Assembly (NCBI RefSeq): GCF_000337735.1
Contig: NZ_AOHX01000037.1
Coordinates: forward strand, 124,001 to 188,000
DNA: 64,000 nt
Source of the DNA: Natronorubrum sulfidifaciens JCM 14089
GTDB taxonomy: Archaea; Halobacteriota; Halobacteria; Halobacteriales; Natrialbaceae
Reading direction: 5' to 3'
The stretch's first letter is position 1. Every line of letters starts with the position of its first letter. Below the pieces are notes generated by a model. It was given only the letters and a program-made list of their open reading frames with translations, had not been told where the DNA came from and did not search any database. Both the position numbers and the translations under genes were made by a program. Positions 52,532-57,167 of the stretch are shown one piece after another.

Positions 52532-53038
52532 TTATCTCGCCGTCGCCTCGAGCACTGCGATACGAGCGTCGTCGACGGTGAGCGTAACGGTGACCACGTC
52601 GCCGGTTTCGATGTGGGGGTCGTTCGTGTCGGCGACGACGACGGTTGCACGCTCTCCGGCCCGCCATTCGGAGTCCGTCGCCGCGTTGAACGGACCAGTC
52701 GGCGTTCCATCGAACCCGGTTGCACCGACGAACGGGACGGGTGGCTGGTTCGTCAGGTCCTCGTCGTCGACGGCAACCGTCATCGACAGCGCCGTCACAT
52801 CGATCGGTTCGCCACCGACGTGTTCGATCGTGATCGTCGACGTCTCGCCGTCGACAGCGAGGTCGAACGCTGTGGTCGGTGCGCCTGCTTCGAGCGAGAG
52901 CGCGCCGACGCCGACGGCGACGACGGCCGCCAATGCGACGGTGAGTGCGAGCAGGGCGACGAGACCGACGAGTGGACTGAGCCCTCGGCTCGCGCCGAGC
53001 GTGGCAGTCGGGTGGTTCGCATCTGGACGATCGGTCAC
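52532..53038 (-). CDS. Type IV pilin-like secreted protein
   Basis: A 168-residue protein with a class III signal peptide: a short charged N-terminus, RGLSPLVG at the likely prepilin peptidase site, then a hydrophobic helix of about 22 residues and a soluble beta-rich domain. This is the haloarchaeal pilin_N layout, used for surface filaments and adhesion. It starts with GTG at 53038, and a strong TATA-like run on the minus strand (53061-53069) is about 27 nt upstream, so it is leaderless. Confidence 0.82.
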   Translation of the reverse strand: MTDRPDANHPTATLGASRGLSPLVGLVALLALTVALAAVVAVGVGALSLEAGAPTTAFDLAVDGETSTITIEHVGGEPIDVTALSMTVAVDDEDLTNQPPVPFVGATGFDGTPTGPFNAATDSEWRAGERATVVVADTNDPHIETGDVVTVTLTVDDARIAVLEATAR

Positions 53039-53060
53039 GCACCGCTTTGGTTGCTCGTTC

Positions 53061-53069
53061 GAATATAAA
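53061..53069 (-). promoter_or_regulatory. TATA box of the pilin-like gene
   Basis: TTTATATTC on the minus strand, centred about 27 nt before the GTG start at 53038. Confidence 0.6.
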
Positions 53070-53207
53070 CGTTCGCTCGATCGTTATCACCGGCACTGCT
53101 CCCGTACTCCTCGAGTACCTACAAGAGCGTGCTCATACGGACTGTTGTCGTCGTGATCGTTGGTTACCAACCCAGTAATCGACGATAAAACGGGACCGCA
53201 GTCCGTA

Positions 53208-54410
53208 TCAGTTGCCGACAGTAACGTCGCTACTGCCCTGTTCGGTGGTTACTGACAACTGGTATGATTCGGCCGGCGGGACGAACCAGATGATCCCGTC
53301 ACTGTCGGTTTCACCGATCTCGAGCCCATCAACCGCGACCGTTGCTGTCTCGGAGACGGTGCCGTCGGCGTCGGTCACGATGAGCATGGTCGGGCCGTTT
53401 GCTGGCGTTTCGTTGAGCGACAGTCGGTGCTCACCGTCGACCCAGACCGTTTCGGTCTCCGTCGGCAGCGAGGTGTAACTCAGCTCCTGTACTTCACGGT
53501 GGACGTTCCCGGTCCCCCCGTCGAGATACGCCTCGAGTCGACCCTGATCGTGGGTGGCCTGAATCTGGTAGAGGTTCACCGCCGTGTGCTCCCGTGCGCC
53601 TGCGGACTGTCTGTTCTCGAACACCCACGGGTACAGCTCGCCAGCGTACTCGTAGGCATCAGAGATATCATCGAACTCGCTTCCCCACGCCGCCTCGCGG
53701 TTGTCGAATCTGGTCGTTTCACGGATGTACTCTCCGTCGAGCATCGAGAGCGTGTACCCAGTTTCGGATGTCTGGACCGTCACCATCGTCTCGGCTCCGA
53801 CGCCACGGGCTGCCGTTTCGAGGTGTGACCGAACTGGTGTCTGATGCATCTCGAGGGCGTTTTGTTCGTCTTGAACCGACAGCGAGTAGTCGGAAATCCG
53901 GTTCGTTCGCTCCTCGAGCGCGTCGAGGGTGTCCGTCAGGACTGCTGCCTCGTTGTGGTTTCGAAGCACGAGCTGGAGGAGTTCCGTCGTCGACAGCTCG
54001 CCTGCAGCGTGCGCTCTCACGGCGTCTTGCTCCCGTTGCTCGAGTTCGTCCGCCCGGTCCATGACCTGATCGTAGGCGTCCTCAACCAACACTTCACGTT
54101 TGGTCATGCTTGCGTCTTCGAACTCGTGGTCGACGATCGTATACTGGGCGTAGTCCGTTCGTAACTCGTCTTCCGTGCCCGCAAGCACCGTTCCGAGGTC
54201 GGGTCCGTACGTCACGGTATCGCTTCTCACCTCACCCTCGAGCGAGAGGCGGGTGGTCGTCTCGTCGGCCGCGTCGTCGTTCGTCGTCTGGTCTTGTAGC
54301 TCCGCCTGCAACTGGGCTTGCATCCCATCTCCAGGACTCGCTGCGACCGGGAGTGCGACGAGCGAGAAGACGAGAAGCAACGCGAGGAGGGCGGGGGTCG
54401 CGCTGTTCAT
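53208..54410 (-). CDS. Secreted coiled-coil protein of unknown function
   Basis: A 400-residue protein. It has a Sec-type signal peptide (hydrophobic run at residues 4-24 ending AAS), a Glu/Ala-rich helical region at about 85-160 that should form a coiled coil, a central mixed domain, and a C-terminal beta-rich domain resembling a carboxypeptidase-regulatory-like or Ig-like fold (VAVDGLEIGETDSDG). I do not recognise a named family. A TATA-like box on the minus strand lies about 27 nt before the ATG. The gene is divergent from the membrane winged-helix protein, and the two may act together. Confidence 0.7.
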   Translation of the reverse strand: MNSATPALLALLLVFSLVALPVAASPGDGMQAQLQAELQDQTTNDDAADETTTRLSLEGEVRSDTVTYGPDLGTVLAGTEDELRTDYAQYTIVDHEFEDASMTKREVLVEDAYDQVMDRADELEQREQDAVRAHAAGELSTTELLQLVLRNHNEAAVLTDTLDALEERTNRISDYSLSVQDEQNALEMHQTPVRSHLETAARGVGAETMVTVQTSETGYTLSMLDGEYIRETTRFDNREAAWGSEFDDISDAYEYAGELYPWVFENRQSAGAREHTAVNLYQIQATHDQGRLEAYLDGGTGNVHREVQELSYTSLPTETETVWVDGEHRLSLNETPANGPTMLIVTDADGTVSETATVAVDGLEIGETDSDGIIWFVPPAESYQLSVTTEQGSSDVTVGN

Positions 54411-54431
54411 CGATCCACTGTATGAACTCTT

Positions 54432-54442
54432 GATACAAAAAC
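54432..54442 (-). promoter_or_regulatory. TATA-like box of the secreted protein gene
   Basis: TTTTTGTATC on the minus strand is centred about 27 nt before the ATG at 54410 and supports that start over one 60 nt upstream. Confidence 0.5.
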
Positions 54443-54633
54443 TGGTCGCACTCACATCTACAGCGATCACACCGTCAGAGTCGTGAATTAAGCGTTGTTT
54501 ACCGCCGTTTCATCTCGTTTCGTCCGTATTCGAAGTTCCGTTCGGCCCACAGAGACGCTTTACAGCCGCTGGTAACGCTTTATTTTTCGATGGAAAGGGT
54601 TTTTTCCCCGGGGGGACCACCCTGTTGGTACGT

Positions 54634-56001
54634 ATGCGGGTATCCACCGCCATTAGAGTCGCCCTCGTAGTCCTCCTCACGACATCCCTCCTCGGGGCGG
54701 TGGTCGCCACACCGGCTGTTGCCGCCTCCACGTCCGAGCCGCTCCAGACGGACACAGCCGCCGATCGGCCACTGCTAGCGTGGTCTTCGACGACGCCCTC
54801 AGAGCCGACAACTGCGCCACAGTTGGCACCGACACAGGCGACAATCGACGAGCCCCAGTCAGAACAGGTCGTTCGGATCAACGTCACCGACTCCGGGGAT
54901 GCGAGATGGACGATCGAGAGCTACTTCCTCCTCACTGACGACGACGAACACGCGGTGTTTGACGAGTACGCCGACGAGGTGACACGCGGACAACGGGATG
55001 TGACGTACGACGTCCAGCAGTTCGAGCCGTTCCGCCAGACCGCCCAGCAGGCGACCGACCGTGAGATGTCACTCGAGAACGCGGACTGGGACGATCCACG
55101 GATCGTCTCACCCGAAGAGGCAGGTCTCGATGCGCAATCGCTACCTGAGACCGACGACGACTCCGAAATCCGTGTCGGCGTGATCGCTTACTCGTTCACC
55201 TGGACGAACTTTGCGGCCGTCGACGGCGACCGGATCTACTTCGGTGATGCCTTTCAGGCGGACACCGGCGTCTGGTTCTCGCTGACCGACGACCAGCGTC
55301 TCGTCATCGAATCGCCATCCGGCTACGCGCTCAGCGCGGAGGCATCGACCTCGCTCCAGTGGACCGGTCCCGCCCAGTTTAGCGACGACGATCTCCAGAT
55401 CATCTTCGTTCGCAGCGCCAGTGGGACCGGCGCTGGTGCCGTCCCGACAGCCGCCGTTCCCGACTGGCTGCTCGCTGGTGTTGTCGGACTCGTCATCGCC
55501 GTCGGTGTGGGCAGCTATCTCCTCGCGCGTCGACGGCCAGCCGGTGAGTTGCCGGCACCGATCGCTCGGCTGCGAGCACACGTCGTGACCCTTCCGGGTA
55601 TCCGCCAACTCCGTGCACGCGGGTCCGACGAGCAGCCACCCGACGCGTCGGTCACGCCCGACAGCGACCGCGACCAACTGCAGTCAGCCACCGAACGCGG
55701 GGCCGACGCTGCCGGTGTCGGCTCGCCCGCCGAATCCGGCACGCAACTCGAGTACGACGAGCCGGTCGACGACGGGATCGATCCCGAACTCTTGAGCGAC
55801 GAGGAGCGTGTCCTTCGGCTGCTCAAACGAAACGGTGGCCGAATGAAGCAGGGCTCGATCGTGTCGGAGACCGGCTGGTCGAACGCCAAGGTCTCACAAC
55901 TGCTCTCACAGATGGACGACGACGACGAAATCGAGAAGCTTCGGATCGGCCGCGAGAACCTCATTACGCTCCCCAACGTTGATCCAACCGAGATCAGATA
56001 A
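54634..56001 (+). CDS. Membrane-anchored winged-helix protein with extracytoplasmic domain
   Basis: A 455-residue protein. An N-terminal signal-like segment (residues 4-27) is followed by an extracytoplasmic domain of about 240 residues, a membrane helix at about 285-305 (WLLAGVVGLVIAVGVGSYLL), and a cytoplasmic part that ends in a winged helix (about 390-450: EERVLRLLKRNGG, QGSIVSETGWSNAKVSQLL). The topology is that of a transmembrane transcription factor that reads an external signal. TTTATTT at 54579-54585 predicts a leader of about 26 nt. Its TAA overlaps a 71-bp direct repeat. Confidence 0.8.
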   Translation: MRVSTAIRVALVVLLTTSLLGAVVATPAVAASTSEPLQTDTAADRPLLAWSSTTPSEPTTAPQLAPTQATIDEPQSEQVVRINVTDSGDARWTIESYFLLTDDDEHAVFDEYADEVTRGQRDVTYDVQQFEPFRQTAQQATDREMSLENADWDDPRIVSPEEAGLDAQSLPETDDDSEIRVGVIAYSFTWTNFAAVDGDRIYFGDAFQADTGVWFSLTDDQRLVIESPSGYALSAEASTSLQWTGPAQFSDDDLQIIFVRSASGTGAGAVPTAAVPDWLLAGVVGLVIAVGVGSYLLARRRPAGELPAPIARLRAHVVTLPGIRQLRARGSDEQPPDASVTPDSDRDQLQSATERGADAAGVGSPAESGTQLEYDEPVDDGIDPELLSDEERVLRLLKRNGGRMKQGSIVSETGWSNAKVSQLLSQMDDDDEIEKLRIGRENLITLPNVDPTEIR

Positions 56002-56070
56002 AAAGCCACTCGCTCGCTTTGCTCGCTCGTGGTCTGAAACCTACGCCAGCGGCGTCCGCTCGACGACCTG
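56000..56070. repeat. 71-bp direct repeat, copy 1
   Basis: Matches 56131-56201 with two substitutions (G/A at 56065, C/T at 56068). On the minus strand it encodes QVVERTPLA and a stop, then the terminator-like tail. Both substitutions are synonymous against the working copy. It begins within the TAA stop of the winged-helix gene. Confidence 0.9.
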
Positions 56071-56130
56071 CCACGTGTACCTTTTTCTCGTCGGATTCGC
56101 TTCGCTCACCCTCCTCCAAAAATCTACGCG

Positions 56131-56201
56131 AAAAAGCCACTCGCTCGCTTTGCTCGCTCGTGGTCTGAAACCTACGCCAGCGGCGTCCGCTCGACAACTT
56201 G
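56131..56201. repeat. 71-bp direct repeat, copy 2, holding the true 3' end of the radical SAM gene
   Basis: This copy contains the last nine codons and stop of the radical SAM gene (minus strand), then GC-rich low-complexity sequence ending in five T's (56131-56135) that should act as its terminator. The 60-bp spacer between copies has no gene. Confidence 0.9.
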
Positions 56202-57167
56202 TCCGTCGTAGCTCGGATACTGCTCGACGATTTCGCCGTCCTCGAGGTCGCCTTCTTCGATCATCTCCTCTAGGAGCCACCAAGCGACCTCGACGTGGTT
56301 CGTTTTGACGGTGTAGAACTCCTCGGGGACGCCAAGCGCCTCGAAGCGTTCGGGGTCGGCGTACGTCTTGCCGTAGACGAGCGTGCCGTCGTCGGTGACG
56401 TCGTCGAACTCCCGGCGGACGTTGCGGGCCATGCGTTTCAGCCGACGGCGGTGTTGGGCGGCGTCTTTGAAGACGGAGGTACAGAAGTAGACTCGCTCGT
56501 GGTCGCCCATCACGTCGAGGATGCCGTCGCGGTCGTTGTCGACGGCGCTCATGTGGTTTTCTTTGAGTTCGTACCCTTCCTTTTGCATGCGGCGATAGTT
56601 CCCGTCGCTCATCTCGAACTCGTTGACGTTACAGAACTCGGCTGCCCCCTCATCGAGGAACTCGAGGAACTCCGTTTCGGCGCGGATGCCGGGAATCTCG
56701 AACGCGGGTGTGAGTCCTTCCTCGCGGGCAATATACAGGATGTCCTCCCACTCGGTGCCGTGAAGCTCGCCCCACTGCTCGAGTGGCGGGTGGAACCGAA
56801 TCTCGTCGAGACCGGCCTCTGAGAGGCGGCGCATGTTCTCGCGGCCGCCCGTGATGCCGGTGTAGAGGTGGGTGTGGTGGTCCTCGCCGAACTCGTCTTT
56901 GAGCAGTTCGAGGTAGTGACAGGTGCGCTCGAGGGCTTCCTGTGGTTCACCGCCGGTGATCGACGTTCCCAGTGCATCCATCCGATGGGCTTCCTCGAGG
57001 ACGTCCTCGTCGCGTTCGACGCGGCGCTCGTTGGCGTAGACGTCGGTGACGTTCTTGCGGTTCTCACCGAGTGGGCAGTAAAAGCAGTCACGCTGGTCGC
57101 AGTATCCGTAGACGAACAGCACCATCTTGCCACCTTCCGCGCACTGCTCACAGCCCTTCGAGATCAT
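56172..57167 (-). CDS. Radical SAM protein with CX4CX2C cluster motif
   Basis: A 331-residue radical SAM enzyme. Its cluster cysteines are Cys23, Cys28 and Cys31 in YCDQRDCFYCP, spaced CX4CX2C instead of the common CX3CX2C; Cys6 and Cys9 form an extra CxxC. SITGGEPQ is the SAM-binding GGE motif. Reaction unknown. A sulfatase needing a maturase is present elsewhere (33292-34680), but the family resemblance is not to AtsB. The 3' end is duplicated downstream. Confidence 0.82.
   Translation of the reverse strand: MISKGCEQCAEGGKMVLFVYGYCDQRDCFYCPLGENRKNVTDVYANERRVERDEDVLEEAHRMDALGTSITGGEPQEALERTCHYLELLKDEFGEDHHTHLYTGITGGRENMRRLSEAGLDEIRFHPPLEQWGELHGTEWEDILYIAREEGLTPAFEIPGIRAETEFLEFLDEGAAEFCNVNEFEMSDGNYRRMQKEGYELKENHMSAVDNDRDGILDVMGDHERVYFCTSVFKDAAQHRRRLKRMARNVRREFDDVTDDGTLVYGKTYADPERFEALGVPEEFYTVKTNHVEVAWWLLEEMIEEGDLEDGEIVEQYPSYDGQVVERTPLA

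Follow-up and report, generated by a model that had tools for sequence, protein, structure and literature searches.

A membrane-bound winged-helix regulator and the secreted protein encoded divergently beside it may together form an autoregulated, kinase-free one-component envelope sensor with a dedicated secreted partner. We put the probability of this reading at roughly 0.58. The two genes lie in a 64-kb piece (the window, which is the whole stretch analysed) of one contig of a 3.46-Mb haloarchaeal genome. Their domain families are already named in Pfam, and the pair resembles known membrane-bound one-component regulators with a partner; what is new here is a directional, near class-wide and locus-specific element in the regulator promoter.

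The sequence-only reading of the window had described two divergent genes. Both are present (Table 1), separated by an intergenic stretch of 223 bp (54411–54633). The open reading frame of the secreted protein was originally listed as 53208–54470, with a GTG start at 54470; because the relatives of the protein start at the ATG at 54410, the start was moved to this codon, which, judged by sequence, is most likely the one used. No structured RNA family of Rfam was matched at E values up to 1 within 53000–56300. Between the regulator gene and a radical SAM gene, a stretch of about 65 nt appears by eye to be duplicated (56000–56064 and 56131–56195).

The regulator almost certainly consists of a signal peptide, an outer DUF7345 domain, one membrane helix, a linker and a cytoplasmic winged helix, as predicted from its sequence and a structure model. 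Pfam assigns DUF7345 (PF24036; E 4.7e-40, 137.2 bits against a curated cut-off of 27.5) and DUF7343 (PF24034; E 5.9e-31, 106.6 bits against 27.6), and the model, built with 25 sequences (mean pLDDT 72), contains a confident outer domain and a confident winged helix, with a disordered linker between the membrane helix and the winged helix. An outside domain, a single membrane helix and an inside DNA-binding domain had been proposed beforehand, and Pfam and the model bear this out. The modelled winged helix has the three helices and the wing of the MarR/ArsR/Z-alpha type. Foldseek matched it to HsmR (8za5_A) with a probability of 1.0 and an r.m.s.d. of 1.0 over 60 columns, at an E value of only 8.8e-3, and the VIA structure comparison gave a match with Z about 10 over residues 388–450. 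Searches by sequence for relatives of solved structure returned none that was convincing (best E values 0.13, 0.46 and 0.34). The basic residues R403, K419, K435, R437 and R440 are conserved in 32/32 core sequences of the winged helix, and K405 in 28 of the 32. These residues and the fold match to HsmR suggest that the winged helix binds DNA, and thus nothing favours its lacking a DNA-binding surface, which had been named as a finding that would count against the proposal. Among distant core regulators, identity is 78% in the winged helix versus 39% in the outer domain; by this measure, the regulator is a constant DNA-binding end joined to a changing outer end. Neither protein has a Pfam match to a histidine kinase or a receiver domain at E values up to 1, which supports the suggested one-component architecture without a kinase. 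For the outer DUF7345 domain and for DUF7094 of the secreted protein, fold searches that used the whole models as queries gave no settled match, the top Foldseek matches having query TM-scores of about 0.2 or less.

The secreted protein matches DUF7096 (PF23379; E 1.5e-53, 182.2 bits), DUF7094 (PF23375; E 1.8e-34, 118.7 bits) and Fn3_arc (PF23374; E 2.1e-17, 63.4 bits), all above the curated Pfam cut-offs and all matched in 22/22 aligned members of its family. It had been called a protein of unknown family; this stands in so far as DUF7096 and DUF7094 are families of unknown function, but Pfam does name them, and Fn3_arc is not such a family. Its model (22 sequences, mean pLDDT 84) has three long helices followed by beta-rich domains. 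The helices are predicted at residues 72–97, 102–135 and 141–169, and the earlier term 'coiled coil' is a fair one for this N-terminal half. DUF7094 was compared with YpeB (5boi), giving Z 8.3 and an r.m.s.d. of 4.3 with 121 residues aligned, values within the range of chance arrangements, and the name PepSY is absent among the best 25 of 44 profile families. In the model organism Haloferax volcanii, where the gene order from HVO_0303 (idsA2) to HVO_0309 (menG) is described in the available text of PMC8305020, HVO_0306 and HVO_0307 are presumed, by gene order alone, to be the orthologous regulator and secreted protein. According to the available part of PMC8241124, HVO_0307 is an N-glycoprotein (three sites, 201 spectra) and HVO_0306 is an O-glycoprotein candidate (13 spectra). 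Their glycosylation supports export and the outside domain. A text match to HVO_0307 in PMC6801745, as far as that source was available, is not relevant: it concerns HVO_A0307, an Lrp gene.

Table 1. Coordinates of the genes, predicted domains and promoter features, as positions in the window.
Feature	Position	Strand	Remarks
Type IV pilin-like gene	52532..53038	-	Downstream of secreted gene, same strand; Pilin_N E 1.9e-12
Secreted partner gene	53208..54410	-	400 aa; start moved to the ATG at 54410
Archaeal Fn3-like domain, residues 320-393	53232..53453	-	Pfam
DUF7094 domain, residues 210-316, alpha/beta	53463..53783	-	Pfam and structure model
DUF7096 region, residues 1-203	53802..54410	-	Signal peptide and predicted three-helix N-terminal half
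TATA-like sequence of secreted gene, GTTTTTGTATC	54432..54442	-	By eye; centre about 27 nt before its ATG
TATA-like sequence, TTTATTTTT	54579..54587	+	Just upstream of element, by eye; conserved in the window's family, not class-wide
Conserved element, GATGGAAAGGGTTTTTTCC	54589..54607	+	Regulator promoter; its ATGG 44 nt before the ATG
Membrane winged-helix regulator gene	54634..56001	+	455 aa; ATG start at 54634
Outer DUF7345 domain, residues 81-231	54874..55326	+	Pfam; model pLDDT mostly above 80
Predicted membrane helix, residues 277-299	55462..55530	+	Model; basic residues follow (positive-inside)
Predicted disordered cytoplasmic linker, residues 300-385	55531..55788	+	Mostly low pLDDT
Winged helix DUF7343, residues 386-447	55789..55974	+	Pfam, structure matches, conserved residues

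The pair is adjacent and divergent in 188/194 Halobacteria genomes, apart in three and not found in three. The arrangement thus recurs beyond chance, and the refuting observation named by the sequence-only reading, that the genes often occur apart, fails. Profile searches with Pfam found DUF7096 in 193/194 and DUF7345 in 194/194 of these genomes. The first searches gave the best 150 places for each family, and the adjacent divergent pair was present in 114 of the 115 genomes with both families among the matches listed; the rest were resolved by further searches and by reading loci. Two more searches placed the divergent pair in 72 of the remaining 80 genomes (G029 being counted there), for a running total of 186/194, and reading of the eight leftover loci added G182, whose DUF7096 had been missed by the Pfam search, and G130, in which contig ends split the pair. 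Both genes are present but apart in G029, G068 and G149; in all three, the secreted gene is still beside the methyltransferase gene and the regulator gene lies elsewhere. Only paralogue-type genes were found in G021, G129 and G151. In G129, a single contig, the methyltransferase gene is followed directly by ids, and the pilin, secreted and regulator genes are missing together from that place. In G151, a contig ends exactly at the site, right after the methyltransferase gene, and the pair may only appear to be absent. Within the limits of profile matches, none of the 194 genomes has one core gene without the other. Outside Halobacteria (241 genomes, from a phylum sample of 294 that included 53 Halobacteria), DUF7345 occurs in 28 and DUF7096 in three, only one of which is over the cut-off.

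Alignment of the intergenic regions revealed one block that is conserved class-wide, just before the regulator gene, with the core ATRGAAAGNRTTTT. The element starts 39–44 nt before the start codon in 35 of the 41 loci measured; of the other six, five have it at 49 nt, where the start codon may lie 6 nt upstream, and one (L050, start uncertain) at 47 nt. A first scan, in which some extraction windows were badly placed, used a threshold of at least 12 of the 14 core positions and found the element in 95/107 regions in the forward direction, one in reverse and three in the best of 20 shuffles. With the regions re-extracted and the threshold at 11 or more, it was found in 104/107 (the misses being G021, G129 and G151); the shuffle control covers the threshold of 12 only. 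The 19-nt form is a single site in the 3.46-Mb genome with up to three mismatches allowed. Across the 194 whole genomes, exact matches to two forms of the element numbered 17 and 55, and these 72 matches fell in 72 different genomes; every one of them precedes this DUF7345 gene and is oriented towards it, as judged by comparing printed coordinates by eye. Controls with the reversed patterns gave 0 and 1 matches. The element also stays with the regulator gene in all three genomes in which the pair is split. Such a constant, genome-unique element, located in the regulator's own promoter and retained by the regulator where the two genes have separated, fits autoregulation and makes it the first explanation to consider; we regard autoregulation through the element, as suggested by these sequence patterns, as likely.

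The look of the element (GGAAA..TTTCC) had raised the possibility of a dyad operator. Among 78 elements taken from outside the window's family, the outer pairs were complementary in 39/78 and 29/78, as the column composition predicts. Since there is no covariation beyond this composition, the dyad claim was dropped; the element is directional, unlike a typical dimer operator. It may be an operator, an unusual core promoter or both. A rival explanation is that a factor other than the regulator binds the element, or that the element is a BRE/TATA variant of the core promoter, and that the regulator acts elsewhere in the genome through weaker sites. The distance of 39–44 nt and the directional, non-dyad form suit this explanation, as does one family (f4) without a conserved TATA-like box upstream of the element. 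Nevertheless, a generic promoter would recur, and this element has one site in its own genome and all 72 exact matches at the locus. CdrS, a known haloarchaeal regulator that we considered as the binder, does not have HVO_0306/HVO_0307 among the 18 H. volcanii ChIP sites listed for it in the available text of PMC8406309. We consider this rival improbable. In a relative on an uncultured archaeal contig (L037), an inverted repeat, GATAGAAAGCTTTCTATC, lies about 254 nt upstream of the regulator gene; it resembles the haloarchaeal element and may be due to chance.

The neighbourhood of the pair is also conserved, in the order atpI, atpH, methyltransferase, pilin, secreted gene and regulator. As had been noticed, a pilin-like gene adjoins the secreted gene and has the same orientation (Table 1). 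This arrangement, with the pilin gene downstream, recurs in 44 of the 47 readable loci, and in 10 of these 44 no more than 23 nt separate the two genes; the methyltransferase gene is a neighbour in 45/47, and atpH and atpI in 41/47, some loci ending early. Our literature search found no paper on HVO_0308. That the regulator controls the pilin gene is possible. One could go further and suppose that a surface structure is built from the secreted protein and the pilin, that the regulator mainly switches this two-gene operon, and that the secreted protein is its target rather than its signal. The recurring adjacency of the pilin gene, the short gaps and the joint absence of pilin, secreted gene and regulator from their usual place in G129 speak for such an operon. 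Nevertheless, the element remains at the start of the regulator gene even where the secreted gene is elsewhere, and no second class-wide block was seen in the intergenic gap, in a profile that took the element as its anchor and would not necessarily reveal a block positioned relative to the secreted gene. We judge this surface-structure explanation unlikely.

As the whole neighbourhood is conserved, linkage of the pair alone is weak evidence of partnership. A second pairing of the same families, at paralogous loci, is stronger evidence. We read 14 paralogous loci, of which seven were picked with both matches already listed, six for two nearby DUF7345 matches and one for DUF7096 alone. The regulator adjoins a DUF7096-like gene in all 14, on the same strand in 13 and divergently in one, and several of the same-strand pairs have operon-like gaps under 20 nt. 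Seven loci (L125, L130–L133, L137 and L138) contain a third gene, which adjoins the DUF7096-like gene; its product, about 240 residues long, is a DUF7345 membrane protein that lacks a winged helix. The regulator tree and the DUF7096 tree group the paralogues alike. HVO_1944 and HVO_1945 are presumed to be such a paralogous pair in H. volcanii; in the available part of PMC8241124 both are N-glycoproteins, and the pairs of this species are annotated as a transmembrane glycoprotein/HTH domain protein and a conserved hypothetical protein. The cell-division regulator CdrS binds upstream of HVO_1944, according to the available text of PMC8406309. The remaining explanation, that the two genes are adjacent merely through conserved haloarchaeal gene order and do not work together, draws on the methyltransferase and atpH/atpI neighbours, which are conserved too, but it is very unlikely given the independent, operon-like pairing of the paralogues, the matching trees and the fact that, within the limits of the matches, no genome was found with one core gene alone. 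We consider a functional partnership of the regulator and the secreted protein highly probable. Four other membrane winged-helix relatives read in this genome (L121–L124) all lack a DUF7096 neighbour, and this kind of regulator can therefore exist without the partner. Two of the four are DUF7343 proteins whose surroundings were noted in passing: one (L123:1932–4339) is beside a long exported-looking protein, and the other (L124:5619–6374) is near genes that look, by eye, related to sugars or polysaccharides.

ToxR of Vibrio cholerae is a single-pass membrane DNA-binding protein with a cytoplasmic N-terminal winged helix and a C-terminal outer domain, and its dedicated co-activator ToxS, which is membrane-anchored, is encoded beside it. 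By description, the haloarchaeal pair is similar, as a membrane-bound one-component regulator with a dedicated outside partner. Unlike in the bacterial system, where the DNA-binding domain comes first, the domain order is reversed. CpxP is a helical secreted modulator of the envelope sensor CpxA, a histidine kinase. The secreted protein described here is likewise helical and is proposed to modulate an envelope sensor, although the present pair has no kinase; no homology is claimed. The archaeal systems closest in description are ArnR and ArnR1 of Sulfolobus acidocaldarius, membrane-bound one-component HTH regulators that control type IV pilus-like structures, as described in the available parts of PMC6396743 and PMC13286277. 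According to the same parts, their HTH domain is N-terminal (PMC13286277) and they are phosphorylated by ArnC (PMC6396743, PMC13286277). The haloarchaeal regulator has its winged helix last, after the signal peptide and the outer domain, instead of a HTH first with the membrane part following, and a secreted partner is encoded next door. Owing to a domain order opposite to both, we did not file the regulator under either the ArnR/ArnR1 or the ToxR/ToxS type. CsmR was also considered as a relative and set aside; the available text of PMC13286277 describes it as a small protein of 13 kDa, unlike the membrane proteins considered here. Our literature search found no functional study of the gene pair or of DUF7345, DUF7343, DUF7096 or DUF7094.

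In the sensor mechanism that we propose, the winged helix would bind the element in its own promoter and control its own gene. Because the distance of the element from the start codon is that of a core promoter, repression is the most likely effect. With about 85 disordered residues in the linker, the winged helix could remain tethered to the membrane and still contact the DNA. Being inherited together with the regulator, the secreted protein is a natural candidate for modulating the outer domain, and it may be the sensor's ligand or target, as the sequence-only reading suggested. This DUF7096 protein would alter the activity of the regulator by binding either the DUF7345 domain outside the cell or the cell-surface target that this domain recognises. 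We see even odds for direct contact between the two outer domains. The state of the envelope would then determine how much regulator is made; the expression of the secreted protein and of the pilin might follow it too, by way of the 223-bp intergenic region that the two divergent genes share. A bolder variant, which we regard as a long shot, is that a membrane-anchored regulator whose own promoter is its only strong site in the genome, a site kept across the class, would besides sensing tie its own gene to the membrane, as a one-gene, one-site circuit or a chromosome tether, with the secreted partner reporting the state outside; in the circuit form, transcription, translation and membrane insertion would be coupled.

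Little is known of how archaea that lack an outer membrane sense the state of their cell surface, and studies of membrane-bound regulators in archaea are few. The single conserved element offers a precise candidate binding site and a promoter to test. If the proposed sensor is correct, the pair would be a core haloarchaeal surface-sensing circuit, and it would give functions to DUF7096, DUF7094, DUF7345 and DUF7343.
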